A stretch of 64,000 nt of DNA from Fragilariopsis cylindrus CCMP1102. Lineage: Eukaryota > Bacillariophyta > Bacillariophyceae > Bacillariales > Bacillariaceae. Shown piece by piece: positions 19,741-53,438 of the stretch. Position 1 is the stretch's first letter; each line of letters opens with the position of its first letter. Under the pieces are notes generated by a model. The model had not been told where the DNA came from, made no database searches, and was given only the letters and a program-made list of their open reading frames with translations. Location of the stretch: NCBI GenBank assembly GCA_900095095.1, contig FMBT01000323.1, forward strand, positions 62,001 through 126,000. Direction: 5' to 3'. Made by a program: the position numbers and the translations under genes.

Positions 19741-21442
19741 CTTCGAACATATTATATATCTCCTCACATACAGTACATGACGTCATGGCATACTAGTACG
19801 TACTAAGAGGTGAGAGTTTATTAAAAGGGAGAATTATCCGATGAGTTTGGAATTGAGTGCCAAAGAGAAGATATTTTTATTGGTAACTAGCGGTTCGCGT
19901 TTCGCACTTTGTGCTTCATTTTCGTTACCGTACTAGTATTTATTGGTTATTTCCCGCTTTTTTCATTCAAATTAGACAGTCTTGTGACGTTTGTCCGCGA
20001 GTAATGACACACGTGTTGATTTATAAAGGATGTGAAGAATCATCTATGTTGTGTCTCTCTATTGTAACCGACGTCGTTACGGACTGAACGTGAACTAAGC
20101 ACTGAATCTTATATACATGTAGAAGACATTTAATTTTTTTGTAACGATACTAATGTTGTATGAAACCTAATCTTTTGGTCGCGTGAGTTGCTGTTCATTA
20201 TTGATACATACAAAGAATCTTCTCACCGGCATAACTTATTTTTTAAATCGTGACTAATGTATGTGATACACATACAATATTATATGAGCTTTTTGTCGAA
20301 CATCAAAAATCTTTCGAAAGATTTTGTTCATCGGCGTTTGCCTTCACGTAAATACTGTAAATCGAAAAAAGATATGAAAAATTCGGAAGCAAAGATCGGC
20401 GTTTTAGTCAGCAAAATAAAATTAATTTTTGTGCAATAAAACAACACACGGTAAGTCACCACCATCCTTCCGTATGTACTCTGTACCTGAAAACGAAATA
20501 TAGCGAAAATACCGCGACTATCTTTTCATTTCGCTCTCTACTGTACTTCACTATAACACTCTCATAATTTTTCTCTATCTGTCTTTACTAAAGAAGTTAT
20601 TATCTCTACTCTTTGCATATCATCTATCTTAAGGAGGTACGTTGCTGATCTGTTATCTCTGTCTCCGTTCCGTTCCGCTTGACAGTCGATGCTGTCTTTT
20701 CGCTCGGTCAAAAGGATGTCCTGTGTGTGTGTGTGTTTTTTTTTTCGAGAATGGATTGATTGTCGTGGACTGTTGTTAGTCAATGGCTGTTTAGCGTATG
20801 TGTAAGTGATTGTGAAACGAGAGACAAAATCAGATGAAGAAGAAGAAGAGATCCCCTTCCTTCCGAGTACGGTAGTGACATTCCTCCCTCCTTCCTTCAC
20901 TTATCGGATCACACACCCTAATATAAATGGCGAGTCGAATCTTTCCCTTCTCTCGTCGAGGAGCATCGAATCTCGTCTCTTCCCACCCCGTTGAGTTGAG
21001 TTGATTTGAGTTGCGGTTGTAGTTGTGGTTGTGTTGCCTGCAGTAGACTGTGGAAGTGTTGTGGAACTGTTCTGGGCGTATGTGGAAACGAGACGAGAGA
21101 CACTAAAACGGAATGAATTCTTCTCAGTCCACCCCTCCTTCCTCCCGAGAGCTCTGTGGAAAGTCTTTCCCTTTTCTCCCTCCTTCCCCACCCACCCTTC
21201 CTTCCTTCCTACGTATTGATACATACGATACGATTTGCGGTTCGCATGTATTACCTCTTCCGCTATTACTTTCTCTGTCTACCTCTTCCGTTTAAGTACT
21301 GTACATCATCTCGTACTTCTTCTTCCAAATGAAATTCGAGATAAAAAATAAACCTCACGAATACCTTTCTTCCTCTTTTCTGTTTTATTTTTAACATAAT
21401 CATTTCATTTCATTTCATTTTCAACGAAGAAAATCAAATATC
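19741..21442. other. Intergenic, upstream region of the secreted mucin-like gene
   Basis: No gene was recognised. There are pyrimidine-rich tracts at 20868-20900 and 21120-21220 (TCCTTCC type). TTTCATTTCA repeats at 21404-21420, just before the ATG at 21443, are likely 5' UTR or promoter. Confidence 0.45.
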
Positions 21443-25166: not shown

Positions 25167-28100
25167 TTAAAAGTTTTCAGAATGAACAATTAATTTACAT
25201 TTACATGCTTTACCATCTAAATGTTTTTTTGTAAATTGATGTTGTGCCGTTACTTCCTTTGCCATTGTTTGTAAATCAGCAGTAATGGCTGGTGAACCAC
25301 AAAAGAATACACCAACAGATTCACCACGACTTACTTTACTTCCACTATTTTTATCATTATTTGTTTGAGCATGTGCTTTTGCCATTGCCTTTAAGAAAAT
25401 GTGTCTCCAATCTGGTCGACCACATTTGAAACTTAAATAATCCTCTTGTTTTGTAAATGATCCTCCACGATTATTATTCTGATTTTGAATTTCAGTAAGA
25501 CTATTAAAAGATGATATTCTTACAAATTCACTTTTACCCATCAAGTCAGTTATTATTTCTTCTTCTCTACCACTAACGTCCTTCAACTCGGGCTTTTCAC
25601 GTGTACCATAAAATTCCATTGAAAATAATTTAGAACCAAGTGGTGGCATAAGACTTTTTGCAGCAAATCTCATACCAGAGTAGTATTTATTGATTAATAT
25701 ACCTTGTATGGAACACATTTGATTACTACCACTATCGAAACTGTTGTTGTTGTTGTTGTTGTTCGTATTATTATCCTTTGGTGGTTTTAATGTAGTATAA
25801 AATATATGAAAAATACGGATGGCATGTAGTACAACAACAACACCAAAGAGATAAAAATATGTTGTATTATTTGCTCTTTGACTGTAACTATTAGGATACA
25901 TATATCCAATTAACGATATCCATAATGCAAATGAATCAACAACAATAATACATACTTCTAACCAAAATTTAAATAATCGTATATACAGATATGGTCCTAC
26001 TACAATTGTTGATACAATTACATTACAACCATGGACAATCAAGGCTATAATTGACATAAACGAACCAAATAAATTTGCACCATCACTAAAAGTAAACATT
26101 TGCATAACAATAGCAATTGTTTCCCCCATAACAAAAAATAACAATAAAAACATTGATATTGTCACTGATTCTAATACCCTTTCAATTTTAATACTGATCT
26201 TACGTAACATTGTTTTTTGTTGATGTTGTTGTTCTGATTGTTCTTGTTCCAGAAGAGTGTGTTCATTCAATTCTTCGTTATTATCTTCATCATAGGTGCT
26301 GTACGACGTATCATCACCTGTTAGGGTACTACCTTCTAATGATTTCTTTCCAAGCGTTGTTGATGTACCTTTTTGTATCAAATATTTCCATATAGACATT
26401 AATGGTGTAACACCAATACCTGATCCAATAACAATAATATGTTTATATTCAAAATAGTTCATTCTTGAAAAAAAGAAAAAAATGCGCGAAGGAATGGGGG
26501 TGAGAGGGAAACTAGCAATTTTCATATAAATGTTTATCCATGTCTGAACAAGATGCCCTGAGATGAAGACTTTCACTTACGCTGGTGCACCGTGTGGACC
26601 TCGAATTGATATTTCTGTTTCTTTTATGGCCTTATTGAGATCAAATGCTAATGCATAATTATATAATGCTTCTGTCCATCGTCCTGTTGATTTAATATAA
26701 AAAACTAATTTCTTTGTTTTCTTTTTCGGTTTCGTTCCTGCTTCGATATAATTACTTTGGACCCAATTGTTGAACTCACTAATATCTAGATCATCATCTG
26801 ATGGTGCAGATGCAATAGTAAATGGATGCCATTCAGTTGTTGATATTGGTGAAAATTTCAATTCAGCATATTGTCCTGGTGTATAATTAAAATTTGATGG
26901 ACATTCTATAACTAATTCTGTTATATGTTCACCATTATCTTCATCATGACATGTCCATTCTAAAACTTTGGTTGTTTTAGTTTTAGATCTTCTCATTGAT
27001 ATATCAAATATATATAACAACAATGGTAACAATTGTACATAAAGAAATATTGGCGAACCTTTACACGTGCCATGTAATATCAAAAGAGGGTATGCAGTTG
27101 CAACACCACCCATATGAAAAAACCAAAACCAACGAAAGCCTACTCCTGTTTTACGAAAGAATGGTAATGTTGTTACATAAAATGTTGAAAAGATTATAGC
27201 CAATAATGTTCCTGTCATTAATAATTGTGTTGTTGCAAAACCATCTTTACCAAATGTCCATGCACGGAAATTGTTTTCTAAAACAATACTTTTTGTTGAA
27301 TAGTTTATAATTTGGGGTATAGTATGTGTTAAACACCCCATAACAATTATCCAATATGCAACAGTTTTATGATATTTTGGCATAATGTTATCAATAGGGA
27401 AACTGATTGGTATAATAGGTGCAATATACGTCCTAGTCATAGTCCATAAATATTTACATGCTGTAATCAACAGTAAAGCACAATTAAATGTAACCAGACG
27501 TCCACCAGCACGTGCAATTGGTAACGTATATTTTAATACCTGGTTGTCTGTATTGAACCCACCCATTGGCGTGAATTGATATGCACCATAACAACCAACT
27601 AAAATTTGCATTGCTATAAATAATATATATAATGCAATTTCCATACCATGATTATAAAAATATACTTCTAATCTTTGCACTTTCATGGCATTTGGATTAG
27701 TTTCTATTCTAAAATTTTGATTTTGTTGTTGTCCTTTTGTTGCAGCAAATCCTTTACGTCTTGAATGACCATTACGACGTAATACTAGTCTTCGTCCGAC
27801 AACACCAGTCATTAATTGTGTTCTTTTTCGTCCAACAACACCACCAATACGTGGACCAAAAGAAACGATACCACTTGATTGGCGTCTTTGCTGATTATGC
27901 TGCATCGACGGTGATGATGTAGGAACATCAGATGGTGATGCAGATGGTGAAACGGACGTAGGTGTGGATGTGGACGGTGAAATCGACGGTGCTAATGAAG
28001 GACTATCAGATAGCACACCACTTGGTCTATGGCTCGGACCACTACTAGGAACAGAGGTTGGCCCAGCATTTGGTAGGAAACTTGGTACAGTATTATAATT

Positions 28101-29351
28101 TTTATAGCGTGGAAGAAAAAAATCATCGGTATCATCATCATCATTATCATCATCGTCAGATTCATTTATATAAAAGTTATCGTTATCGTTATCGTTATCG
28201 TTGTAACTACCTGATCCAAAAGAGAATCGTTGGGGTTGTTTTGGTAGTTGCTTTCCAGACACAGACCTACTCTCTTCATCTTTTAATGATGCGATCCTAT
28301 CTTCGTTACTGCTTGTTGCTTTATCAGCAGACACAGACCTACTCTCTTCATCTTTTGATGATGCGATACATAACTTAATATCAGTAGGATCGATACTGAC
28401 ATGTGCATCGGTACTTTGTTTAATCTTAGTCGTCGTCTTCGACTTTTTCTTCTTCGACTTGGTCTTTTTTGTTTTCTGCTTTACTTCAGTTGTATTATCA
28501 GCAGGCGTACTGCTGCTACTGCTACTGTTCTTCTTTGACCTTTTCTTCTTTGGGGGTTTCTCTTCGACTATTTTACCATCGCTATAAGTAGTTGTAGTAG
28601 AAGTTGATTCCCTCTTTGTTCTCCTATTGGACTGCGTGTCAGACAAAGTTGTAGCAGTAGCAGTATCAGCAAAAGGAGAGATTTTTGATTTTGTGGATTT
28701 GTTCGACTTAGTTTTAGTCAATGACTTAGCAGACTTTGTTTGCTTAGGAGGAGATGCATTATCGGACTGCGTACTAGACAAAGTTGTAGCAGTAGCAGCA
28801 TCAGTAGCAGAAGGAGAGATTTTTGATCTCGCGGATTTGTTCGACTTAGTTTTAGTCAACGACTTAGCAGACTTTGTTCGCTTAGGAGGATATGCATTAT
28901 CGAACTGCGTGTCAGACAAAGTTGTAGCAGTAGCAGTAGCAGTAGCAGAGCTTTTTGTTTTCTCGGATTTGTTCGACTTAGTTCTGGTCAACTTAGCAGA
29001 CTTTGTTCGCTTAGGAGGAGATGCATTATCGGACTGCGTGTCAGATGTAGTTGTAGTATTTCCTTTCTTCGAAGTAGATGAGGACGAGGACTTCTGCTTG
29101 CTTGCTGGAATGTCTGCCAAAAAGTCATTATTATTATCGTCGTCTACTTCTTTAATAGTAGACTTTTTAGCACTCTTTTTCTTTGTTGACAACTTTTTCG
29201 TTGTTTTCTTCTTCTTCTGTTTCGCCTTTTCGTCTTCCTTTTTATTCTCCAACGATTGCTGCTGGATAACAGCATCAGTACTAGTACTTATAGCAGTAGG
29301 TTCTGACATTATATCGCGTTCTGCTTGTTGATGATAGTACAAGCTACTCAT
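25167..29351 (-). CDS. Ferric reductase / NADPH oxidase-like flavocytochrome with Lys/Ser-rich N-terminus and extra membrane helices, 1355 aa
   Basis: Exon 1 is 29351-26581 and exon 2 is 26463-25167. The GTAAGTG...TTCAAG intron splits an Ala codon. Residues 1 to about 390 are Lys/Ser/Thr-rich with three imperfect repeats (PPKRTKSAKSLTKTKSNKS). Then comes a diatom-style PSxxPS linker (about 430-485). From about 570 there is a ferric-reductase membrane domain with two haem-ligand pairs: YHKTVAYWIIVMGCLTH (His 661/676) and FHMGGVATAYPLLILH (His 746/760). The FAD motif is HPFT at 842 and the NADPH motif GSGIGVTP at about 936. CGRPDWR and FCGSP follow, and the protein ends in HSENF, as NOX/FRE proteins do. 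Directly after GSGIGVTP an insertion of roughly 200 residues carries four or five more hydrophobic helices. It should move electrons from NADPH across a membrane to Fe(III) or O2. No EF-hands are seen, so ferric reductase is somewhat favoured. Confidence 0.85.
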
Positions 29352-29993
29352 GGTGTGATTATTATTTTGGTCTGTTAATTTGACCGTGATGGTGCGTGCG
29401 GTTATAGGAGGAGCTGAGCGAAATTATGAGTTAATCTTGTGTATTATTCGTAGAGAAGTGTAATTATTACGTGAGCAGTTGAATGATGTCAGACTTTTAC
29501 TGTACTTTGCCTTGTCATAAAAGTAATGATTAGCGAAGAAGTAGTGACTCGTCAGCTTTTATTAAGTACGTGAGTTAGTTACTGTACCCTGTATGCTTGG
29601 CGGTGTTACGACTTCTATTTTTCTGTCCATTCCAAGCTATGAGCTTCTTTTGACGTTCATATATGATCCATTGAAAGGGTGGATGGCTTAACAAGATTAT
29701 CCTGAAGTTAACTATTGTATTATCGATACATAGAATAAAATAGTGAACTTTAGGAGAACCTCGTTAAATCACCCACTTTTCCAATACACCTTTATTAATT
29801 TAATAGGGTGGTACCCTTAAACGTTTTATCTGATAGCAGCTCAGCTGCCTGTATCTGTTCAAGAGAGAAGCAAGAAAGAGAAGGATGATATTTTGCATAT
29901 ATTATTAGTAGTCCGGTTACCAATTACATGATTACTACGTGTGATACATCTTATCCGAGTCATAAAAGTTCTACATAAATGTCAGCTTTTACT

Positions 29994-31180: not shown

Positions 31181-33245
31181 CTACAGTTCATCGTTTCCAT
31201 TCTTCTCAGTGTCGTAATCATTATCTTGATCATCATCATCATCTTTTATACATACACCACATGTTAATGGACATACTTCATTCATAAATATTGCATTACG
31301 TTGACATTCTTGATTATTACCCACAGCATTCCAAAATGTACAATGACCACTTTTATCATAACAGTGTCGTAATGGTATAGTATATATTGTACGTATGTCG
31401 GATATAATGGTGATTGAATATAAACAGGTATTACTATGTAATTTATACCGTCCTGGTGAATCCTTTCTGGTATCAGTTTGTACATCCCGTACCCACCATT
31501 CATGGGATAACATTGTAGTTAAAGTAATACTTTCACCGACCTGAATAATATTTTTTAATTTTGCAGTATTATCATGTATCCAATATACTGAATTTTTTTA
31601 TTTTTATAGGAATAGAATAGAATACAAAGAGAATGAGTGAATGAGTTAAGTGAGTGACGGAAAAGAAGCAGAAAGAGAGAGAGAGAGAGACAGAAAAAAG
31701 GAAAAATGATGATAGATAACAACACAGTCGTTTTTTTTTCCCTTTCCTCTTTCTTCTTGTAATACAGCACAGTATAGTATAGTATAGTATAGTACAGTAC
31801 TGTATAGTATAATGCAGTACAAGTGCAGTACTGCTGTGATATACTGTACTGTACTTCTTCCGTGCATTGCAAACGGAAAATTTGCGTACGGTACGAGCAA
31901 GCAAACAAGCAAGCAAACAATCGCTAGTAGAGGGATGGATTCCCTTTGAGATCCATCATTTCGATTTTTGTTGGTTCTTTTTAAGCCCGTATTGTACGCA
32001 ATTAATTTGCGTAGTTGCTTGCACACGGAAGGATGTCGTTCAGTTCAGTCCAGTATCGTTTTTTAATTATTAAACTTAAACTTAGATCATACTAAAAAAC
32101 TTCAACTTACATTCAATTGGTGAATTATGATTATTCAAAAATGTTACTGGAACTTGTAAATTTGTCCAGACCCATTTATCAAATATATCTTGTTCATCAG
32201 TTTGAAGACGACGATTATTTGCAGTATTATCTCCACCTCCGCCTCCACCTCCTAACTCATTAAATTTTGTACCACGTTTTCCAAATATAAATATAGGATC
32301 TTTTAATTGATCACCTGAAGGTATTTGAAAAAATTCGGTAATTTTGTTGGAACGATGATATCGTACTACAGTGGTTTGTAATAAATCTTCCCACCAGATC
32401 CCTTGTGTTGATTTTGCCGCGAATGGCCAGGGATAGACCATATCATTCATGACATGTTCCTCAAGTGGTGGTGTATAAAAACAAAGTAATAAATTACGTT
32501 CTAATACTGATACTCCGTCAACATCATCAGTGATAATTGTTTCTAATTGTTCCAGAGATACAATATGTAATAATCTGGATTGGGCTTCTTTGACATCAAA
32601 TCGATCTTTTAATTTTGGACGTTGATATCGTTGTCTACTTTGACCACTACCGTGACCACCTTGACCAGTATTCCATTTAAATTGCCAATGAAATCCATTA
32701 TTTCCACTACTACCAAATCCATTATTTCCTGCTCCACCACTTCCACCATTACCACCAGATCCTGTATCGGTAGCAGATCCAGCATGACCAGTTCGATCAT
32801 AGTGTTGACGACTACGTACATCACTTAATACTTCAAAGGCATGGACGACTTTTTGAAATTGTTCAGCTGCTAATTCTTTTGGTACATCTTTATTCTTATC
32901 TGGATGTGTATCTAGTGCCTTCACACGATATGCTTTTTTAATTTCATTGATTGTTGCTTTCGAGGAGACACCTAATATTTTATATAGATTTGTTTCTGTT
33001 TTTGTTTTTGTTGCTGCTTCAACGAAAAGATCACAATGTAATGATGGCGATGATGATAATGATATTATTAAAATAATAATGAGCAGAAGTTGCAGAGAAA
33101 TACCGCAACAATGATTATTGTTATAGCGAGTACGAGTACGAGTACGAGTACGACGATGATTACTACTCTGATGCCGACGATGATGACTAATAATACGATC
33201 ACATTGACGACGACGACGATGACGCCGTCGACAATAAAGGATGTT
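31181..33245 (-). CDS. Signal-anchored J-domain protein with VHL-beta-like and ShK domains, about 510 aa (start unresolved)
   Basis: Exon 33245-32111 joins exon 31587-31181 through a GTAAGTTG...TTCAG intron that splits a Leu codon. After an Arg/His-rich stretch and a hydrophobic signal (LQLLLIIILIISLS) comes a full J domain: TNLYKILGVSSKATINEIKK, then the HPD signature in THPDKN and AFEVLSDVRSRQHYD. A Gly/Asn linker follows, then a folded region (LLLCFYTPP, YPWPFAAKS, IFIFGKRGTKF) of unknown type. A VHL-beta-like domain is next (VTFLNNHNSPIELYW, then VGESITLTTM and LSHEWWVRD). A C-terminal ShK domain has six Cys (HCYDKSGHCTFW, ECQRNAIFMNEVC, LTCGVC). A lumenal ER co-chaperone of Hsp70/BiP is the natural reading. 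No in-frame ATG precedes the J domain before an upstream stop. The ATGs at about 33,255 are in another frame, so the start is either in an unseen exon or hidden by an indel in the CGTCGT repeat. Confidence 0.8.
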
Positions 33246-34304
33246 TCATGTTCATGATATATACTTTTATTACTATTACTGCTGCTGCTATCGCATTGTA
33301 CTGGACAGTTTTGCTTGATATTGGAATGCGAAGGTTTTATGTGTTAGTTTTTTTATGTGTGATTTTATATTTTTAAAAAGACGTCATTCATAAGATACGG
33401 TAACAGTAACGGTAAGTATGCCACGTTTGAAAACCACGTTTGAAGAGAATTCCTAAAGTAATTTGTTAGTCGACTAAGTCGAATAAAATGATGGATTCTT
33501 CAAATAGTGATGTGAAGCAAACTTGAACGGCGAAGAACAAATCATTCGTGGGACTCAAAACTAAATTCACTGTAAAAAACAACTGCATAATTCATGCAAT
33601 TTTCAATCAAAAATGATTATATATTGCACTTGTATTAAACAGAAACGGTTAGTATATTTCTACTCCTGGTTCAAAATGGGTCTAGAAAATATATTTAAAT
33701 TTTAATTTATAATGAATAGTTTGTAAGTTGCATACTGTTGAAAGTACTATAGTTTTACTAGTAATGTCTAGTGAATTGTGATTAAAAAAAATCAGCTAGG
33801 GCGAACTTTTCAATTTTTGTCTACACAAGCGCCGCGAGAATTTTTGTTCGTGGCACACCCCTCAAAAAAATTATTACCCCTGACTACAACGGCAAGCAAG
33901 CAACGATAACGATAATTTTTATATACTGTAAATGAATGAATTTGAAGATGAGGGATGATACACCGATAATGCTCTTGTGCTGCTTTCGCGCTACAACAAT
34001 AGCAGTAATAGTAGTAGTTTTTGCCTAGCAATACCAATAATAGCAGTAGTGTAGTGGCAGTCAGTAATTAAATAAGTAAAGTAGCATAGCTAACTAGCTA
34101 GAATAATACTAAGACGATTGATTCCCATCCGTACCGAATTCAATTCGATCGTTGCTAAGCTGCTCATCATTATTATTGAGAAAGATATCCGTCCGCATAC
34201 AAGTAGTATTACGACAATATCTTAAAAGTTAGGACCACTGCAACTGTAACTGTAACTGTTAACTTATATACTTTAGCTGTACTCTGTAACTTATACTTTC
34301 TATT
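33246..34304. other. Intergenic, no gene seen
   Basis: Upstream of the DnaJ gene and downstream of the PC-esterase gene (both minus). It contains AT-rich spacer and short GTAACTGTAACTGT repeats near 34245. No coding exon was recognised, although an unseen first exon of the DnaJ gene could be here. Confidence 0.4.
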
Positions 34305-37963: not shown

Positions 37964-40900
37964 CTGTTGATCCGGCACGACACACGCAAAAAAGAGAAAA
38001 CCGAAACAACACAGTTAGAGTTGGGGTACGAATGTTATGTTGTGGGTTGAAATGTTGTGGGTTGAAATGTTGTAGGTTGAAATGTTGTAGGTACAAATGT
38101 AGTCTGTTGATCGACACACGCAAAAGAAACGATAAGAAATATGTAGGGATCGACATGACGAAAATATGCATACTGCATGTATATTAGAAATAAGCAACAA
38201 TAAAAAAATATTACACTTACAGGACCGTTCGTGGTGGTTGGTTGAAATGTAGGTATATCAGATCTGATACATTGTGTTTTGCACACAAGTGGACAAGAGT
38301 TACGAACAGATATGCGAGTTTCTTTTTGCGTTCTATTACAACGTCTAACATCAAGTTGTACCCAATCACAGTCTTTCTTGCTATTATCATTGGGGTTTTC
38401 GCGGGGATCATCATTGAATATAAAGTCTGGGTCATTGACACAATTAGTTTCAGTCGGTGATAACGTCGGTGCTGATGTCGGATCATCAGATGGTGCTGCA
38501 GATGGTGCTGCAGATATGGTCGGTGGTGGTGTGGCTGTGGACGGTGCTAATGAAGGATTAGCAGATGGCGCACCAGTTGGTTTATCGCTCGGACTACTAG
38601 TAGGAGCAGCGGTTGGAGCAGCACTTGGTAGGGAACTTGGTACAGAACTGGCACTTGGGTTAGAGCTGGGTGCATCACTAGGACTAGTACTAGGAACATC
38701 ACTGGGAGAAGCACTTGGTATGGTACTTTCACTAGGAGTACTACTTGGAGCAGCACTAACAGACGGTTTGAGACTAACACTAGGAACACCACTTGGGACT
38801 TGACTTGGTGTATCACTAGGTTGAGAACTTTCACTTGGTGTAGCACTTGGCCTGTAGGTATCTGTTGGAGACATACTCGGCGAGGATGATGGAAAGGCAG
38901 TATTTTTGCAATTTGATTTGCATGTTGCTGGACAGTAGAATTCTAATTTCTTTCCGGATGGTACGTCCATTTTACCGCATCGTTTGTTGGGTTTTTTTGC
39001 CACGTATGTATTACAATTGAATGCAGGATTACCTTCAAAGAACACTCGGCAAGAATTTTCACATCTACCACGTGGATTGCATTTGTCATTGCATTGTTCC
39101 GGACAAAAGAAACTGACTTTTTTTGCCTTCCCCTTCACTTTATTCTTCTTATCTTTGTCAAAACAACGACTTAAATCGTCTGCAACATATGTATCACAAT
39201 CTTTACCCCTTTTCCCTTGAAATTTATATTTGTCAAGATTTTCACAACGAGCACGTTCAACTTCAACTGGCCGGCTACATTCTTCTTTGCATTGGTCCCG
39301 ACAAAAGAATGAAACCTTTTGCACTTTACCATTCACTTTATTCTTGTTATCTTTCTTATCACAACGAGATAAATCTTTTGCAACATATTTACCACAAGTT
39401 TTACCCTTTTTATTTTTAAATTTATAGAGAGCAAGACTTTCACAGTCACCACGAGGAGCAGTAGGAACAAGAGTAGTAACCGGTGCCTTCGTTGTAGTTG
39501 GTTGTCCAGTAGGTGCTACACTTAAAGAAGGTGCAGGTGATGCGGATGGAGATGCAGTAGGAGATGTACTTAATGAAGGTCCAGTGGATGCGGAGGGAGA
39601 TGTACTGGGAGATGTAGTTGGTGGTCCAGTAGGTGCGACACTGACAGAAGGTGCAGGTGATGCGGATGGAGAGGCACTAGGAGATGTACTTGCTTGTTTA
39701 GTAGGTGCTTCACTTAACGAAGGTGCCGAAGTTGGTTTGATACTGGGTGATCGTGTAGGGCAGGTACTGGGATAGGATGTGGGTCCAGCACTGGGTACAA
39801 AAGATTGTGAAGGCGTCCCAGAAGGAGCAAGTGATTTACTTGGTGTAGTGGACGGTGCAGTCGAGGGTGACGAGGATGGTGCGGTCGAGGGTGATGTCGA
39901 TGGTGCAGTGGAGGGTGCGGACGATGGTTCAGTGGTTGGTGCAGTGGTTGGTGCGGTCGAGGTCGATGGTGACGAAGAGGGTGCAGGCGAGGGTGCCGTC
40001 GAAGTCGAGGGTGCAATCGAAGTCGACGGTGCCGTCGAGGTCGAGGGTGCACTCGTACTAATACATCCTGCATTACATGTTCCAGGACAAAAGAAGTTGA
40101 CTTTTTTTGTCTTGCCATTAATTTTATTCTTTTTATCTTTCTTTTTACAATACTTGTTTGGATTTTTTGAAACCCATTTCTCACATGTTTTACCATTCTT
40201 GTTTTTAAATTTGTAGGAATCCAGATTTTCACATTCCTCTCGAGGTTTACAAATATCATTACATTGTTCAGGACAAAAAACACTAACTTTTTGTTTCTTT
40301 CCATTCACTTTTTTCTTTTTATCTTTCTTCTTGCAACGAGATAAATCTTCTGCAACCCATGTTGCACAATCTTTATTATTTTTATTTTGAAAGTTGTATG
40401 TGACATCATTTTCACAAGTACCACGTTCTTCGTCCGCTTCTTCTTTACAGTCATCATTACATTGTTTAGGACAAAAGTCTCTAACTTTTAGTTTCTTTCC
40501 ATTCGAATCTTTCTTCTTTTTATCTTTCTTGTTGCAACGAGATGATTTTTCTGCAACCCATGAATCACAATCTTTATTATTCTTATTTTGAAATCTGTAC
40601 GTATCATCATTTTCACAATCTTGTAGTTGTCGAAGTTGTTGTTGTGCTCGTCCTAATGCTTTAACAATACGATTTTGATTCTTCTTGAATTGGTGAAGAA
40701 TAAAGATGGAAAGAAAAGAGAAAATGTGAGACAAAAGTGCAGGTAGTATATCAGTCATGAGACTCGAAAGCGTCAGAAGCTGCTCACGGCAAATTCGTTT
40801 TTTCTTTTCTGTTACGAAATACAAATAGCTTATTTGTTGTACATTACATACATACGCATATCATCGGAAAACACCAAAGCAATATAAACGTACCGTATTA

Positions 40901-42159: not shown

Positions 42160-43234
42160 CTAACTAGTATCGTCGTAGAAGGTTTGAATGGAATCATCCT
42201 TGTCATCAATCTTTTCGGGTTTCTTTTTTGCAGCAGTATTAGCCAAAGTAGCAGGAGCAGCAGCAGGAGTCGCCGAAGTTGAAACGGTATCATCGTTACT
42301 ACTACTACTACTTTTTGCAAGTTCTTGTAATAACATTCTTGTTTCTGCTAATAACTTTTGACGATCACCTTTCATCATTTCTTGTTTGGCTGATAAATAT
42401 GCACCCCGTGCCGCCAATTCACATTCTAGTGATGCTAAATTATCACGTAATTTTTTAATCCGTTTCTTGGCACTATCATTTTTGGAATATTTGTACATAC
42501 CATAAAAACGATCAAAGGAACCATTCGATGCCATTTGTGATATTTTATTTAATTCTTTATATTCTTTGGACATGATTGGTGTGGGTGTTAATAATTCACG
42601 ATCATCCAATAATCGACCAATCATATGTGTCATAAATTCGGCATCACCAATCGTTATATCATGTGTATCACTATCCGCAATTCCACCACCACCTTCAATA
42701 ATTTCACAACGTGCATTTTCAAAGATTTTTAAATACTTATCACATCGTTGTATATTAGCAACACGGGAACGTTCATATATCATTTGTCGTCCTTCCCATA
42801 TATTTGACAACGATGATGATGTGCCATCACTACCACCACCACCACCAGACGAGTAGGATGGTGCCATTATAGTCACTCCTCCATTATCATTTTTCTTTTG
42901 CATTTGAGATCTATTTTCTTCTTTTGGTAACATACCTAATAATGGATTTGTTAATAGTACATCAATTGTTGGATCATTTGCAAACGCATCCATTAATATT
43001 GATTTTGGATGATCATTTAATGGACCGATATCAACAACTAACTTTCCTGATAATTCTTCAATTGGCAATGATGCAATAGTTTCTTCTAATGCAATTAATG
43101 GTACAGACAATACAACAACATCTAGATCTTTAAAGAATTGTTTTGAATCATAATGAAAAGCAACACCAAGTTTTTCTGCTTCTGCAGACTATTGTATTAT
43201 ACGTGTAGCAAGCAATGTGTTGCATCAAGAGAGA

Positions 43235-43265
<31 letters not shown>

Positions 43266-44841
43266 GTGACAGGAAAAAGAAATGTGAGTGAGAATCCAGT
43301 AAAAAAAGCGAGCATCGACTTTGACTCAGTTTTAATGTACAGTACGTCGAATTGATTATTTAACAACTTACCTTATCTTCTTTATCTAAACATGATACAC
43401 GATGTTTCTGTTGTACCATTTGTGTAGCAAATACTTGTCCATATGAACCGAATCCGACTAAACCAATATTAAGTAAAGATGAATCATTCCTACCATTAAC
43501 ACCATTCACATTATCATCATCGTTTGTATCACTACCACTACTCGATACAATTGTATTACTCATACCATCATCATTATCATTTAACCGTTTAATTTTAATT
43601 TCTTCTGCAGCTTGTGATACAGGACCCACTAATCTTGATTTACGTGGATAACTACCCAGGATACGAACAAAGTCAGTAAATTCACGTAAATTTGATAATG
43701 CATTTTCTGAATTAGATGATAATTGACCATCTAAAAAATCCAAGTAAAAACAATACCGAAATCTTGGTAAATCATTATCTAAATTAACTGGACTTTGATT
43801 ATTATCACTACCATCCGTATTATTATTATCATCTTGCTGCTGCTGTGTTGTGGTTGATGCCACAGCAGAATTTGCAGCTTTCCGAAATTTTAAATAATTT
43901 AATAATGCTGCGGAGGTTGGTCGGGATTCTATTTTACTAAAATCAATATCACGTAAACTAAAACAGGCTAATGCTTTGTATAATGCACCAGCGGTATTTG
44001 GTAAGGTAAATACCACCGATGTTTTAGATGGAACATCCTTATTTAAATATTCTAAGACACCCTTCCGTCCTAACAGTAAAAAACGTGTAAAATTAGAATC
44101 ATCATCTTCGACACCCTTGGCTAAACAATTCATACCGTATGTTTCACCAGCTAAGTCCGATGCAATAGCAATAGTATTAAAGGGTGTACATCCTGCTGGT
44201 AAATCATTATCACGGATCATTTTCGCACTCCCGGCAGTATCATAGGTGGGTATGGGTCTAATATTTAAACTTCGTAAATAATTATCACATTGTGCTAATG
44301 CTTGTGGATGACTAATCGCATATTTAATTTGTTGACCACTACCACCAAGTATGGAGGATGCATCCGGACTGGCTAAGACACAATGTTGGACACGAAATTC
44401 ATGTTCAGCACAAATTGTTAAATCATACCGTAGCATTAAATCATAATTTTCATGTATACTACCACCTAAACTATTTTCAATAGGAAGACAACAATAATCG
44501 ACTTCCATTGACGCCACTGCACGAAAACATTCTTCAAAATTTGCTTTCCCCAGTGCTATTACACCATTGCCTAATAATTCTCTGGTCGATTTTTCTGAAT
44601 ACGCACCCGGTTCACCTTGATACGCGACACGTAAATTTAATGACGTTTTACTACTACTTGTTGTTGACGTTGATGGCGTTGTTATCTTCGGTAGTACGAC
44701 AAATGCATCAGCAGCTGTCATTCCTCCTTGTAAAAGTAGAAAGGAAATTGATACACTTACTACTGCAAGTATCATCTTCGTAGTAGCCGCTATTGACGTT
44801 GTCGACGTCGTCGTCGTCGCTGCTGCTACTGATGATCTCAT
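42160..44841 (-). CDS. Plastid-targeted fusion of prephenate/arogenate dehydratase (PDT-ACT) and arogenate/prephenate dehydrogenase, 832 aa
   Basis: Exon 1 is 44841-43372 and exon 2 is 43188-42160, joined at phase 0 (GTAAGTTG...CAATAG). ATG at 44841 is followed by a signal sequence ending TAADAF|VVLP, the diatom plastid cleavage context. PDT part (about residues 70-260): VAYQGEPGAYSE, LPIENSLGGSIHENYDLML, SHPQALAQCDNYL and the catalytic-site NFTRF. ACT domain (about 275-375): NTAGALYKALACF and KIESRP, interrupted by a Gln/Asn insertion. TyrA part: Rossmann LVGFGSYGQVF with the split at EDK|SAEAEKLG, VVVLSVPLIALEET, and IIEGGGGIADSDTHD...AEFMTHMIGRLL. It thus catalyses both exits of the shikimate pathway, toward Phe and Tyr, in the plastid. 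Whether it uses arogenate or prephenate cannot be read by eye. Confidence 0.88.
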
Positions 44842-46419
44842 TGCTATTTTTGTTATATCCGACACCGATCGATACAAAAAACAAAATTCTTCTGCCAGAA
44901 TGCTCTTTCTTTCTTTCCTTACTTGTTTACAGTAACAAAAGCTACCTCTGCTGTACCTCTATCGTCTAGTACCTGCCCTAATAATAATGCTACCGTATTG
45001 CTGCTTTTGCTTTGTGTATATATTTTATTTGTTGTTGCTTGTCGTGTGTTTCAAAAATCGAAACAATAAACAAGCCCAAAGACACCATAACAGGTGCATC
45101 AACGCAAGTGCCATCCATTTGATTCCACGTGGAATGCTAGATGTAGGCAGACTTCAAGACAGAGATTGTTTAGTCTCTTTAATAAAAAATTATCAGTTAA
45201 CTTTACGCGTAGTTTTTATTTTAAATAACGCGAAAGAACTAAATCATGTCCTGTGGTACTTCTCAACTTTCTGGCATTCTAACCCATCCTAGCATGTATA
45301 AAGTCTCGATCAGATGGTATAATCTGAGCTTAATATACATAGGGTGGATCCCTGGACCAAACTTTGGGGCGCTAGGTATGTTTTCTTTACACTGGAAGGT
45401 GGTAAAGGGTGTGATGCAGCCTGGGACACGGGAAAATGGCCCATTTGGGGGGGGGGGGGGGGTATGTGACCTAGTACACACTCAAAAAGATGAATTGTCC
45501 CAAAGTAAGCACATGGGGTTGACCATATACACCAAAGAGAATATAAACTTGGCAAGCTATAGGCAGGAACATGCTGATGTGAGCGCTAAAGGTGAAAACC
45601 CTGCTGTGGGGCCTAAATGACCCTTTTTGGGGCTTAGCACACCCTGACACCTTCCTAACCTCCCTAGAGCCCTAAGCAATAGTTGAACCTTGTACCCATA
45701 GTTATAATGTTGAGCTCCATACAATCTTTTAAGGTTATTAGGTCTGTATTGATGATGCATCACGGCCTTGATTACACATGCACTTGGCACTTCGAGAAAT
45801 TGTGTGTTTTAATAGCAATGGGTTTTGACCCGTGACATCCCAAATATATGTATGGTTACCTAGAAATGATATAATCCAAAACCTTTATGAATTAAGTTGA
45901 TGCCTAGCTATTTTATTTGGGACTCAGCATACCTGGTATGGGTGCAGTATCATCCCAACTATCTTTGCAACATGTGCATTTTGGGCCATTTTATGTCTAT
46001 TCTATTGTTCCCCGTCCCACTACACCACCAATATGGCAAATATTCCAAGCATTGTTGGTATATTTTGACCATACGCATATATGGAAGATATCTGGGTGTT
46101 AAAATCATAGTCCAATTCCTTTTTATCTTATTTCTGAATGATATTTTTGGGCATGGAAATATGACATGCTGGCCAAACTGCAATGTTTGTGTTCTGGAGG
46201 CAAGAATAAGGTAAGTATGTATGAGGGATCATGACCCTTGGTTCATCCCATTTAGGTATAAGATGGATGACTGGGTGGTATTTATGGTGCACCATGATGG
46301 TTCTAGAACCTAAGGAGAAGTTATTCATCTTACTATTCAAAGTTGTTTAATATTCCAATAAAGAAACATTTGAGAATTTGTGGAATGAGAAAATGATACC
46401 AATCAGAATTATTTTACAA
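44842..46419. other. Gene desert, left part
   Basis: No gene was recognised. 45447-45462 is a run of 16 G. Short Cys/Trp/His-containing frames occur on both strands but none continues. Composition resembles the relic region at 16.1-19.7 kb. Confidence 0.4.
45447..45462 (+). repeat. G16 homopolymer
   Basis: Sixteen consecutive G, unusual in this AT-rich DNA. It could form a G-quadruplex. Its exact length is at the mercy of sequencing. Confidence 0.8.
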
Positions 46420-47525: not shown

Positions 47526-48550
47526 TACATTTTAAATCCCAAAAATATGTGCTGTGTGTGTGTGAGCCTACATTGTGAGATACCAGTAGACTTACAAGAC
47601 TGAGGAATACAACAGTCCTCCATCCAATAGGTCAATTGTAAACTTTCATACTTTGATTTTCCAAAAAAATGACTTTTTAGGTGTATATACTTGATGCTAA
47701 AGTTGTTATTATATACTACACTAACAAATACTAGTAAAATTTTGGGCATGATTTAGTTTTTATACTGAGAATTCATTTGGGGCTATTTTGTCCCTTAAAA
47801 ATATTTTTGTTTCCCCCAATACATTTTATCTTCGGGGCCTCCTCCTCTATGCTTATTTTGGGGGATTATTAATTATAGCCAGTCACTCTTACAGTATTAC
47901 TGACTGTAATTGAAGCAGAAGATACAAATTTATTTTTTGAAAGAAAAAACTATTATTCGCGAAATTCTAGATATGCATTGTCAGTTAGACTCACATACAG
48001 TCACAAAACGTTATCTGCTCTCATCGTGAACACTCATAGAATAAAAATACACTGTAATAATAGAGCCCTGCTCGCCTCTGTCGAAGAAAGAAGACATCAC
48101 GGTGTAACCACACGTCGGGGACGAGCGGAGAAGTGGGTATAATAACTACTGTATTATAACAGCACCGTGAACAACACAACACCGCGCCATGCAATAAGAG
48201 ATAATAGTATGGTGACGACTACGACTCGACTCACTCACTCAAGATGGCGACGACTACGTACTGTAATACAAAATTTCATCTCTTCGATGAGACCGTGGAC
48301 ACTCAACTCAACTCACTCGTGCAAAATAGCAATCACGCGTGATATTCACATTGACATTCTGAGTATAGATTGATACCATTATTTTTATTACTAGGTAGTA
48401 GTAGAGGCAGCAATAAACCAACACGGCAAAACAACAATAATAAACCAACAAAACATTGTTACAACCATATCCTTCTCATTTCTGCAATCATATTCATATA
48501 ATTCTCATTATTGTCACTATCGTTGTCAACACAAAACTAACAACAACAAG
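47526..48550. other. Gene desert, right part and F-box gene upstream region
   Basis: 47717-47775 carries an ACTAGTAAAATTTTGGGCATGATTTAG block, also found inverted inside the MITE-like element near 41391-41440. From about 48290 the sequence (CCGTGGACACTCA...ACTCGTGC) matches the region upstream of the second F-box gene near 52123. Confidence 0.5.
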
Positions 48551-49729
48551 ATGAATAGTAATCGTAAACGTCCTTCTACTCCTCTAGTACCCATTGACGA
48601 TGGAAGTTTTGCAGGTGGACCACGTCGTCAGAAGAAAGCAATGATCGCATCGTCAACATGGGAATTACTACTACCAGTTCCTGTAAGTATTGAAACTTTT
48701 AGTTGGTTAGATCAGGAAAATTTGATGAATTTAAGTTTAGTATCAAAAAAGTTCAATGGTATTATTGCTGTCGTCATAAGAAAGCAACGACCGCAACGAC
48801 GTCGTCAAAGGAAAGCAAGGATCGCATCTTTTTGGAATTTACTACTACCAGTTCCTGTAATTCACGAAACTATCAGTTGGTTAGATCAAGAGAGTTTGAT
48901 GAATTTATGTTTAGTTTCAAAAAAGTTCTATGATATTATTGCTGGTAATGAACCTGGAAATAAAAATAAAATTATTCCTGTATTTGAAGTCATAGGTAAA
49001 ACTTCACTAGAAACTTTGTTAAAAAATTTACGTGTTCATTTTAGGAACAAAGAGACAAGAAGCAAGTTACAATCTTATGTCATCATGAGGTTCAAGGATT
49101 TAGACAATTTTGAGTTTGATTATACTAGTGAATCAATCATGAAAAATATTCGAATAGCGAAAAAAGTTCAAATGAATGGAATTACATCGTTAGATCTTTC
49201 TTCAGGTTCACTTACAACAATCGAACCCTCCACATCCGCACTCTTCAGTATGTTGCCAAATTTACGTCAAGTCGATATGTCTAATAAGTATATCTCTCGG
49301 CATTGTATACATACGGAATTATTTAGGAGTTGTCCTTCTTTAGAAAAACTTACAATGCATAATAGTGCAGATTTTTGTCTAAGTGCATTCGGCATGGGAT
49401 TTACCAGTAGTATAAAAGAAATTTATATCGACAATTCGTATTTTGATGCCTATGAGAATGATGAACTTGTTCACATGGCAGACTTAAATGATCATCAAGA
49501 TACCTTCATGTTCCATTATTGTTGTAATGCTCTCGAACGTGTTTCGATCAGAAATATGAACCTTGATCTTATTTATAATGATGGGGAACAGTTTGCATTC
49601 AATCAAAATGCATGCATTAAATTTATTCGTAATGCTCCACAAACCTTACGTTGGTTTCGAAGTGATTTAACTCAAGAAAATATGGAGATGCTCCGAAAGG
49701 AACGACCAGGAATCGAATTATTAAATTGA
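48551..49729 (+). CDS. F-box/LRR-like protein with a duplicated F-box segment, 392 aa
   Basis: Single exon. The N-terminus carries two copies of an F-box-like helical motif: LLLPVPVSIETFSWLDQENL with MNLSLVSKKFNGII (about residues 38-72), and LLLPVPVIHETISWLDQESL with MNLCLVSKKFYDII (about 96-130). The second is followed by GNEPGNKNKIIPVFEV. The rest is LRR-like: SLDLSSGSL, MLPNLRQVDMSN, CPSLEKLTMHNS. It ends ALERVSIRNMN and LRWFRSDLTQENMEMLRKER. F-box proteins recruit targets to SCF ubiquitin ligases through Skp1. The LRR side would bind the target. The paralogue at 52359 has one F-box copy and the same remaining layout, so the extra copy arose by internal duplication here or was lost there. 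Confidence 0.7.
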   Translation: MNSNRKRPSTPLVPIDDGSFAGGPRRQKKAMIASSTWELLLPVPVSIETFSWLDQENLMNLSLVSKKFNGIIAVVIRKQRPQRRRQRKARIASFWNLLLPVPVIHETISWLDQESLMNLCLVSKKFYDIIAGNEPGNKNKIIPVFEVIGKTSLETLLKNLRVHFRNKETRSKLQSYVIMRFKDLDNFEFDYTSESIMKNIRIAKKVQMNGITSLDLSSGSLTTIEPSTSALFSMLPNLRQVDMSNKYISRHCIHTELFRSCPSLEKLTMHNSADFCLSAFGMGFTSSIKEIYIDNSYFDAYENDELVHMADLNDHQDTFMFHYCCNALERVSIRNMNLDLIYNDGEQFAFNQNACIKFIRNAPQTLRWFRSDLTQENMEMLRKERPGIELLN

Positions 49730-50589: not shown

Positions 50590-52358
50590 AACTTCTTTTC
50601 TTTCGAATTTCGAATACAAAAAGGTTGTATGTATGGGGAAAGGAATGTTTTGTCTTGCTTGGTTCTATAGAATATAAAAAAGGTGTATGTATGTATGGGG
50701 AAGGGAATGTTTTGTTCTGCTTCGTTTTGTAGAAGTCATTATCATTTCTCACGATGCTAGCTGCTACAACTAACTTCTTACGAAATACGATTCAACATTA
50801 GTACTCAAGCAATTTTGATCATTCGAGTTCTTATCTTTGGAGGGATTCATTAAGCTAGCTTCGAAAATTTAGAAATAATGAGGGAAAATTGAATCGTCAT
50901 TATATATTGAAAAGTGTACGTAGTTGAAGGGCGAAGTGGACGTAACAAAGAACAATAGCTTCACCTCAGATCGTTAAAAATAACAACCAAGATTGCACCT
51001 TCCTTAGGGATTTGTTCAATATAGTATGTGTCTCGTCCATTTGATAACCACTCAACCACTCAACCAATCTGATTCTGATACACTAGAACAGTATGGCAAT
51101 TTTTATGCATACAGAATAAATCAATATCAAATGCCATCACCCTAACCAATATGACTGCACCACAGTATTCGGTGATATAAATTAACTACTCAAAAAATGA
51201 GCCACCACAATTTTAAAATGTGGCGCGGCACAAAACATTTGGCACGAACACATTTCCACGAGCGCCATAAGTGACGATTCAATTCTTCATTTAATTAGGC
51301 ACGTGTCAAGTACAAAACTTTCGTAAACACATTGTTATTCCTGAGTCACTTCTGTTCTTTTGAATTTCGAATAAAAAAAAAGTTGTATGTATTGGGAATG
51401 GAATGTTTTGTCTTGCTTGGTTTTATAGAAGTCATTGCGTAATTTTACGATGCTATGCTGCTGCGATACCGACTTTCGGTATTTAAATGATGATGTCTGT
51501 GTTCTGCGACAACTAAATTCTTACGAAAAATACGATTAAACATTGGTACTCGTAAATTTTGAAGTATTCGGGTTCTTATTTTTGGAGGAATTGATTGATT
51601 CTAACTCTTGCGGATTGAGAAGTAGCTTGTGTCATTATCCAAGCTTCGAAAATGTAGAAATAATGAGGTAAAAATGAATCGTAAAAATTGAAAAATATAT
51701 GTGGATGAAGGGCAATACAAAAGCTTTTGTAGAAAGTAGTTGCGGCTACCGAATGGAAGTATTTGTGAGATACATATCTTAGTCCCTTTTATTCTTCGTT
51801 GTGTCCTTCCAACTAAAGATACGGAAACCGTGCATATTATATTTTTCTCGTTGCATTTTTTCGCTTCGATAATGTTTTCATTTATCATTTGTCGAAATGC
51901 TCATTGATCACGATCGCCGTGGCGTTTTGCTTATTGTTGTCAGTTGCTTTATCATCGAATTAAAGTATGTAAAAGATGGAAGGGAAGAAAACGGAGTACA
52001 GTAACGTGTCTGTGAACACTACGCGTAATACCCAGCCACCGCTACATACTGGTGGCGACACACACACAAGAAATAATATTCATGATGATACGTAAGTTCA
52101 AAATTTTCTCTTTGTAACATAACCGTGGACACTCACTCGTGCTACCATTCTTTTTCTATAGCAGATGCAACACGCAATAGAACATGGCAGCAACAAGATA
52201 ACAAAACATTCTTACAGCACTTATTTCTTCATTCTGCCATTCTTCCATAAATCATCCTTTGACATCCTAAATTACTATATACTACTCGTCCCTTATTACC
52301 GATCCAATCTTAACAATCATCATCGTCAAAATCGAAGCCAAACATTACAGTAAGAAAA
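50590..52358. repeat. Spacer with duplicated segments between the F-box paralogues
   Basis: A unit containing GTTGTATGTAT..GGGGAA.GGAATGTTTTGT.TTGCTT.GTT appears at about 50622-50672, 50683-50735 and 51380-51430. A second, longer segment at about 50776-50940 (GATTCAACATTAGTACTC, then TAGAAATAATGAGG) recurs diverged at about 51525-51715. The order is the same, so the spacer itself has been duplicated. No gene is called here. Confidence 0.65.
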
Positions 52359-53438
52359 ATGCCACGAGCTAACAACAAAAAGAATAATAGGCGTAAACAT
52401 ACTCCTCTACCACCTAATGGTATTGCGAGTAGAACACGATGTCAAAAAAATAATGATATTAAAGCAGCTACACTTATTGCGATGAGGCATGCGATAGCAA
52501 CACGACGTCTACCTATTGATGTTATTGCGAGTGGCACACGACATCAAGAAAATGATATTGCAGCAGCTTTGGATATTCCAATCCCAATTATTATTGAAAT
52601 TATTAGTTGGATCGATCAAGAAAGTTTGATTAATTTGAGTCTGGTATCAAAACAGATGCATGATATTATTCGTGATGAACCTGGTAATAAAAATAAAATC
52701 ATTTCTGTATTCGAAATTAGAGGAAGTTCGAGACTAAACCTCATTCCAAATTTACGCGGATATTTCTTGAACGAGAAGACAACGAAAAGATTACAAAGTT
52801 ACCACATAATGACATTCAAGGATCTACACAAGTTGAATTCTGTTTTTCTTGCTCAATCACTCACTTTCGTGGGAAGTGATGATTTTCATATGAATGGAAT
52901 TACGTCGTTAAATTTCACTTCACCTTCTCAAACACTCTTTGGCCTCCCATCCACCATCATGAAGATGTTGCCAAAACTACGTGAGGTCGATCTTTCTGGT
53001 ACAATTGTTAACAATCATATCCTTCATGAATTATCAAATAATTGTCCTCTTCTGGAAAAAGTAGTAACTTCGTCTCATAATCGTTATGCAAAAATCAATT
53101 TGAGTACACTCACCATGTCAGATTCCCGTTACCTAAAAGAAATTCACATGAATAATGTATTTGTCATCATAGATCTCCGTGATGGAAAGAAAATGGCGGA
53201 CTTAAATAACCATCGAGAGATATTTATATTCCATCATTGTTGCAAGGCTCTCGAACGTGTTTCGATTCTGAACATGAAATTTGGCCTCCAACACCCTTAT
53301 TTGTCAACTTTCATACAAAATGTATTGATTAAGTTTGTTCGTAACGTTCCATCTTTACGTTGGTTTCGAAGTGATTTAACATCAGAAAATATGACAATGT
53401 TGCGAATGGAACGACCCGAAATCGAATTTTTGAACTAA
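52359..53438 (+). CDS. F-box/LRR-like protein, tandem paralogue of 48551-49729, 359 aa
   Basis: Single exon. A basic Asn/Lys/Arg N-terminus with two GTRH/SRTRCQENN-like repeats precedes one F-box segment (IPIPIIIEIISWIDQESLIN, LSLVSKQMHDII, about residues 72-105). DEPGNKNKIISVFEIRG follows, matching the first gene. LRR-like blocks (MNGITSLNFTSP, MLPKLREVDLSG, NCPLLEKVVTSS) lead to ALERVSILNMKFG and LRWFRSDLTSENMTMLRMER. By eye, about half the residues in the LRR half are shared with the first copy. Same strand, 2.6 kb apart, with related upstream DNA: a tandem duplication of gene plus flank. Likely substrate receptor of an SCF ubiquitin ligase. Confidence 0.7.
   Translation: MPRANNKKNNRRKHTPLPPNGIASRTRCQKNNDIKAATLIAMRHAIATRRLPIDVIASGTRHQENDIAAALDIPIPIIIEIISWIDQESLINLSLVSKQMHDIIRDEPGNKNKIISVFEIRGSSRLNLIPNLRGYFLNEKTTKRLQSYHIMTFKDLHKLNSVFLAQSLTFVGSDDFHMNGITSLNFTSPSQTLFGLPSTIMKMLPKLREVDLSGTIVNNHILHELSNNCPLLEKVVTSSHNRYAKINLSTLTMSDSRYLKEIHMNNVFVIIDLRDGKKMADLNNHREIFIFHHCCKALERVSILNMKFGLQHPYLSTFIQNVLIKFVRNVPSLRWFRSDLTSENMTMLRMERPEIEFLN

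Follow-up and report, generated by a model that had tools for sequence, protein, structure and literature searches.

We analysed a stretch of 64,000 nucleotides from the diatom Fragilariopsis cylindrus CCMP1102 (contig FMBT01000323.1, positions 62,001 to 126,000; hereafter the window), concentrating on a minus-strand gene that is predicted to encode a DnaJ-type (J) protein joined to a VHL-beta-like domain and an ShK domain. A sequence-only reading had proposed the order signal, J domain with HPD motif, VHL-beta-like domain and six-Cys ShK module, and this order was borne out by Pfam matches to DnaJ and ShK, by a hidden Markov model (HMM) of bacterial VHL domains and by hhalign.

Gene structure and domain order

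The gene comprises two exons. Once spliced, these read as a single frame of 513 residues, which is open from 33245 and closes with a stop codon at 31183-31181. The coding part of exon 1 (32111..33245, open from 33245) contains a basic N-terminus, a hydrophobic segment, the J domain, a linker, a middle region and the first VHL-like strand. It is followed by a GTAAGT..TTCAG intron of 523 bases (31588..32110) and by exon 2 (31587-31181, stop included). A second gene copy on contig C748, collinear over ~20 kb with main blocks 84–96% identical, is taken as the other haplotype of the locus; it has a GT..AG intron at the same place (515 bases), and all parts of the protein are kept in this diverged copy. 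The VHL HMM match spans the splice, rising from 16.3 bits for exon 2 alone to 29.3 bits for the joined sequence, which argues that both exons are part of one predicted transcript. Across 498 aligned codons the haplotypes differ at 104, 67 of them synonymous, giving nonsynonymous (dN) and synonymous (dS) divergences of 0.043 and 0.258 (dN/dS ~0.17), or 0.022 and 0.241 in the VHL-like part; the comparison fits purifying selection on the protein. The assembly (67.9 Mb in 818 contigs) has silicon-transporter genes (PF03842, best E 1e-226), in line with a diatom. Our searches of it with the VHL-ShK part and the middle region returned, beyond these two copies, only two weak matches to the ShK part (E 0.002 and 0.018).

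The haplotypes also differ at the start of the gene, which is intact in C748 (MNINILYCRR..). In the window, a one-base difference within 33246-33255 shifts the start codon out of frame: the upstream ATG (33253..33255, with a second in the same frame at 33249) lies one base off the exon 1 frame, and the open reading frame (ORF) from 33245 to 32082 has no ATG before the J domain. This is either a difference between haplotypes or an assembly error.

In the hydrophobic segment CCGISLQLLLIIILIISLS (33054..33110), Kyte-Doolittle hydropathy peaks at 2.55 in a 19-residue span; the value comes from the C748 allele, whose letters are identical here. The segment may act as a signal peptide that is cleaved off or as a type II anchor, the latter because it is preceded in the C748 allele by 48 residues with 15 Arg/Lys, an unusually long basic N-terminus. 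The J domain (32796..32990, HPD at 32898-32906) matches Pfam DnaJ PF00226 at residues 86-150 (7.8e-21; 74.4 bits vs a cut-off of 27.8), while the six-Cys ShK domain (31250..31369) matches Pfam ShK at residues 454-491 (3.1e-5 and 24.9 bits vs a cut-off of 20.9 in the whole protein; 5.3e-6 on the VHL-ShK part alone). After an acidic tail, the protein ends in NDEL (31184..31195, stop 31181-31183), a KDEL-like retrieval signal for the endoplasmic reticulum (ER) that closes an NGNDEL terminus in both haplotypes. According to the accessible text of PMC3503769, DDEL works as an ER retention signal in Phaeodactylum. A BiP-like HSP70 with a hydrophobic N-terminal stretch, on contig C651, has an apparent ..GDFGDDEL end in a different frame from the upstream HSP70 match, and this is likely its C-terminus. 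Because a hydrophobic N-terminus, a disulfide-type ShK module and a C-terminal NDEL occur together, the J domain is most naturally placed in the ER lumen, in support of the ER-type protein proposed earlier.

Between the J domain and the VHL-like domain lies a middle region of ~158 residues with one Cys (32157..32630), for which Pfam returned nothing at E<=10 and a profile search against PDB gave no more than two matches, both weak (E 0.11 and 0.55). By eye alone it looks thioredoxin-like, a reading that these searches did not establish; a single-sequence AlphaFold model of the region (predicted local distance difference test score 31) was left unused. Neither a thioredoxin domain nor a TPR was detected by Pfam in the whole protein.

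The VHL-beta-like domain

The intron divides the VHL-beta-like domain into an exon 1 part, VPVTFLNNHNSPIE (32111..32153, minus strand), supported by HMM and hhalign, and an exon 2 part, YWIHD..TTMLSHEWWVRD..IISDI (31394..31587, minus strand), supported by HMM, hhalign, AlphaFold and VIA-align. The HMM was built from 47 bacterial loci found by motif patterns, three of which (L031, L036 and L056) were dropped as truncated to leave 44 domains; three of the 47 loci were tested for Pfam VHL, and all three have it. The joined segment scores 29.3 bits, whereas the best of 1000 shuffles reaches 7.1, and a slightly shorter segment scores 30.7 bits with shuffles at most 9.6. In hhalign, the segment aligns with the bacterial VHL profile at 96.6% (E 5e-10). 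These profile matches place the domain, as a predicted homologue, in the VHL beta-domain superfamily. An AlphaFold model of exon 2 gave its best superposition on VHL, with a modest Z, so that a VHL-type fold is supported with limits. No VHL match came from direct searches with Pfam, NCBIfam or phmmer against PDB. Pfam VHL likewise retrieved nothing from the diatom's own genome, where its controls also stayed silent, and three scans of viral contigs found no relative.

The accessible text of PMC4195687 names W88, Y98, S111, H115 and W117 as the hydroxyproline contacts of VHL, and that of PMC6650433 adds I109. At the first five of these positions the J protein has W, K, T, H and W, confirming by alignment the earlier proposal that Trp88, His115 and Trp117 are matched, that Ser111 is Thr and that Tyr98 is replaced. 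The full hydroxyproline-reading pocket is therefore not present, since Lys takes the place of Tyr98 and Thr, which the fly also has, that of Ser111. Of the 44 bacterial domains, all have W88, H115 and a T/S at 111, 41 have W117 and 37 have Y98. These counts are biased by the search patterns, and as a control we considered loci caught only via the other pattern, in which W88 is found in 24/24, H115 in 19/19 and T/S111 in 19/19; Y98 and W117 lie outside both patterns. Because the same residues are conserved across bacterial VHL domains, the pocket matches mark the family and not the ligand, and W88, S/T111, H115 and W117 are best read as a signature of the VHL family generally.

VHL-like and ShK modules on predicted prolyl hydroxylases

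We scanned 6086 ORFs from the window and from fetched loci of the same genome, which covered 20 of 48 hydroxylase matches. Besides the J protein, the bacterial HMM matched L089 (C706) at 18.6 bits and L085 (C221) at 15.5 bits, while L081/L082 (C36/C594) scored 10.4 bits, increasing to 16.1 with the J-protein domain added to the model and to 20.5-21.1 with the J-protein domain and one other hydroxylase. As isolated segments, L089 scored 21.8 bits and L085 14.6 with the bacterial HMM (1000 shuffles at most 6.2 and 5.6, respectively). All of these VHL-like domains lie upstream of a 2OG-Fe(II) oxygenase domain (PF13640) on the same strand, and by eye the frames that hold them have a hydrophobic stretch at the N-terminus. 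L089 encodes a complete VHL-like domain in one frame and its catalytic domain in the next; its near-identical twin L088 (C387) has a single open frame that begins midway through the VHL-like domain (HVDFYW..) and extends through the catalytic one, so that each copy is broken, at different places. With only part of the domain in frame, L088 scores up to 10.3 bits with profiles excluding L089. The L081 segment, used as a protein query, additionally recovered C706 (E 5e-7) and C387 (E 2e-5), and the L085 segment recovered itself only in the own-genome search.

The three hydroxylase domains have N78, Y87, W88, T111 and H115. Aligned with the bacterial VHL profile, their joint profile reaches 96.5% over 70 columns (E 1e-9), against a maximum of 3.6% for 60 versions with shuffled columns; with the J-protein pair it reaches 89.9% (E 1.7e-6). 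The three had been chosen from the 6086 ORFs before this test. Because some spurious fragments score as high as the single sequences, the claim rests on this joint profile, on core alignments with the signature residues and on gene position. With the bacterial HMM, a 47-residue fragment (15.9 bits) ranks above L085 (15.5), and with the J-protein domain added L077 (16.3) ranks above L081 (16.1). We judged as spurious two short antisense fragments in L077 (up to 16.9 bits), an antisense ORF of 47 residues at this locus on C748 (up to 15.9) and weak matches in L098 (up to 11.1), at 20656-20775 of the window (up to 10.3) and in L092 (7.8). A VHL-like domain occurs in 5/20 hydroxylase loci, the partial L088 among them, vs 0/47 others when L077 is discounted by judgement (Fisher p 0.0016, indicative only; the 47 leave out 9 loci of the J gene, and loci overlap or are haplotypes). 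Merging six near-identical or similar pairs yields ~14 hydroxylase genes, 3 with a VHL-like domain, and a rough merged count with L077 as a match gives p 0.04, also indicative only and using 15 hydroxylase genes vs the 14 of the pair list. The three genes are predicted to encode prolyl 4-hydroxylases of the secretory pathway that bear a VHL-beta-like domain at the N-terminus, their prolyl substrate being assigned from the family, and are possible reader-writer fusions. The genome may hold further VHL-like genes beyond the fetched loci.

The ShK module is likewise shared. The genome has 20 ShK matches, haplotype copies and the J-protein gene included. On C563, an ShK match and a 2OG match lie side by side on one strand within a 487-residue frame; on C88, two Pfam ShK domains with a secretory-type N-terminus precede a 2OG match ~0.8 kb downstream. 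The general association of ShK with prolyl hydroxylases that had been noted earlier holds in this genome, within one frame in C563 and across a gap in C88. At a further site, C340:226994-230500, L064 combines a hydrophobic N-terminus, ShK and weak, sub-cut-off TPR matches, and downstream of it L123 has a J domain with HPD (41.3 bits); together they are probably one P58IPK-like J-protein gene with ShK and introns. By these matches, ShK recurs on predicted secretory folding and hydroxylation enzymes of the genome.

Possible role and relation to known systems

Our preferred reading, to which we give a probability of about 0.4, is that the gene encodes an ER-lumenal class C J-protein whose VHL-like/ShK half selects hydroxylation-linked clients, or hydroxylases, for BiP. 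The J domain would stimulate the ER Hsp70 (BiP) while the VHL-beta-like domain, probably with ShK, would bind secretory proteins at their prolyl-hydroxylated segments, or else the hydroxylases acting on them; BiP would thereby be loaded onto those clients, and NDEL would bring the J protein back to the ER. We infer each of the lumenal location, BiP partnership, client recognition and hydroxylation dependence. The link to prolyl hydroxylation gains independent support because three predicted prolyl-hydroxylase genes carry VHL-like domains; these shared domains make it more than a guess and are suggestive, if not proof.

A number of results weigh against this reading. Pfam VHL (PF01847) has no match at E<=10 in the whole protein or the isolated segment of both haplotypes, and it has none on the hydroxylase pieces. 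Foldseek alone on the exon 2 model was not significant, and that model lacks the first strand, is of modest confidence and was built from an alignment selected for VHL homology. Taken singly, the hydroxylase domains score only marginally, with spurious fragments coming close, and the start codon of the window copy is out of frame. At the pocket, the residues other than Tyr98 are kept in bacteria and so are no proof of hydroxyproline binding, position 117 is Phe rather than Trp in the three hydroxylase domains, and Tyr98 is gone from all four diatom domains, being Lys in the J protein and Val, Met and Ala in the hydroxylases. Mutation of Tyr98 abolishes HIF binding in human VHL, according to the accessible text of PMC4195687. 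This loss speaks against the pocket being modelled on the human one and could indicate another ligand, dihydroxyproline or plain protein binding. The hydroxyproline-client co-chaperone of the sequence-only reading is, as a whole, plausible and partly supported.

The same pocket residues bear on a competing account, which we consider a substantial though lesser prospect, in which the VHL-like domain is a beta sandwich that binds peptides or proteins generically (for example unmodified chains that are proline-rich or extended, or a second copy in a dimer), borrowed as the client-binding domain of an ordinary ER co-chaperone. The lost Tyr98 and the wide occurrence of W88, T111, H115 and W117 in bacterial VHL-like domains are both as it would predict, and co-chaperone action is defined by the J domain alone, but the VHL-like domains of three predicted prolyl-hydroxylase genes speak against it. 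Those genes would instead be central if the J protein bound the VHL-like/ShK-bearing hydroxylases themselves, chaperoning the modifying enzymes and not their products, with the modules common to both mediating assembly; as shared domains more often mean shared ligands, we regard this as improbable. Only a shade less doubtful is a diatom lumenal reader-writer system, in which prolyl 4-hydroxylases have their own VHL-like reader and the J-protein reader recruits BiP to modified cell-wall proteins. The accessible texts of PMC5501833 and PMC4557024 report dihydroxyproline in the cell walls of several diatoms and in Thalassiosira silaffin peptides (tpSil1H), and the loss of Tyr98 could fit 3,4-dihydroxyproline. 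PMC4220933 mentions hydroxyproline only by way of a mussel paper that it cites.

ER J-proteins, ERdj5 for one, work in ER-associated degradation. In a role nearer that of human VHL, which reads hydroxyproline for HIF degradation (accessible text of PMC4195687), the protein would recognise secretory proteins that are hydroxylated or misfolded, and BiP would hand them on to ER-associated degradation. We think this very unlikely, given that ShK directly follows the beta-like domain, leaving no room for the VHL alpha/SOCS-box region, and that a middle region with one Cys has no Cys-X-X-Cys reductase motif. More improbable still is a faulty gene model or an allele in decay in the window. The one-base start difference and the missing in-frame ATG ahead of the J domain would suit either, but C748 is intact, dN/dS is low over the 498 codons and in both haplotypes splicing makes the VHL motif whole again.

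Other genes in the window include a neighbouring minus-strand ORF at 38035-40860 (11% Pro, 14% Ser, 49 Cys), in which Cys-rich repeats occur together with long stretches rich in Pro and Ser. Its product resembles a cell-wall protein and may be a substrate for prolyl hydroxylation. A ferric-reductase/NADPH-oxidase-like gene lies over two frames at 25167-29423 (minus strand; FAD_binding_8 and NAD_binding_6). At 42160-44958 (minus strand), a prephenate dehydratase ORF is followed by one with a dehydrogenase-type (F420_oxidored) match, the pair perhaps forming one bifunctional enzyme, and tandem, related-looking F-box/leucine-rich-repeat-like ORFs are found on the plus strand at 48395-49729 and 52314-53438 (Pfam on the first only).

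VHL-type reading of hydroxyproline is known from animal oxygen sensing. The J protein resembles the pVHL beta domain (human VHL, Drosophila Vhl) in profile and in keeping Asn78, Trp88, His115, Trp117, Arg120 and Asp121, with the Thr of the fly at Ser111, but differs in having Lys for Tyr98, in its predicted lumenal location and in its fusion to J and ShK domains. No E3-type alpha domain or SOCS box was found, ShK following directly in the sequence and the Pfam scan being the sole SOCS-box model run. The bacterial VHL-beta proteins (47 loci; the accessible text of PMC9002001 describes one such protein), the relatives available for profile comparison, share the signature N, YW, T, H, W, but there Tyr98 is mostly kept (37/44). 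With class C ER J-proteins (ERdj5/DNAJC10, DNAJC16 and P58IPK/DNAJC3) the protein has in common an HPD J domain, a presumed lumenal location and an ER retrieval-type tail, whereas its client module is VHL-like plus ShK, with no thioredoxin domain or TPR by Pfam. The ShK-bearing predicted prolyl 4-hydroxylases of C563 and C88 share its ShK modules and, in C88, a secretory-type N-terminus, but have a 2OG-Fe(II) catalytic domain in place of the J domain. In literature searches on VHL, ShK, DnaJ, prolyl hydroxylase and diatoms, no VHL-J or VHL-hydroxylase fusion appeared in titles or opening abstracts, in a coverage that mostly excludes subscription journals. Each module is familiar, and the combinations of J, VHL-like and ShK and of VHL-like with prolyl hydroxylase appear to be new. 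If our reading is right, a lumenal VHL-like domain on a co-chaperone would place the VHL domain, familiar from pVHL, in the quality control of secretory proteins, and would offer an entry to how the dihydroxyproline-bearing proteins of the diatom silica wall are made.
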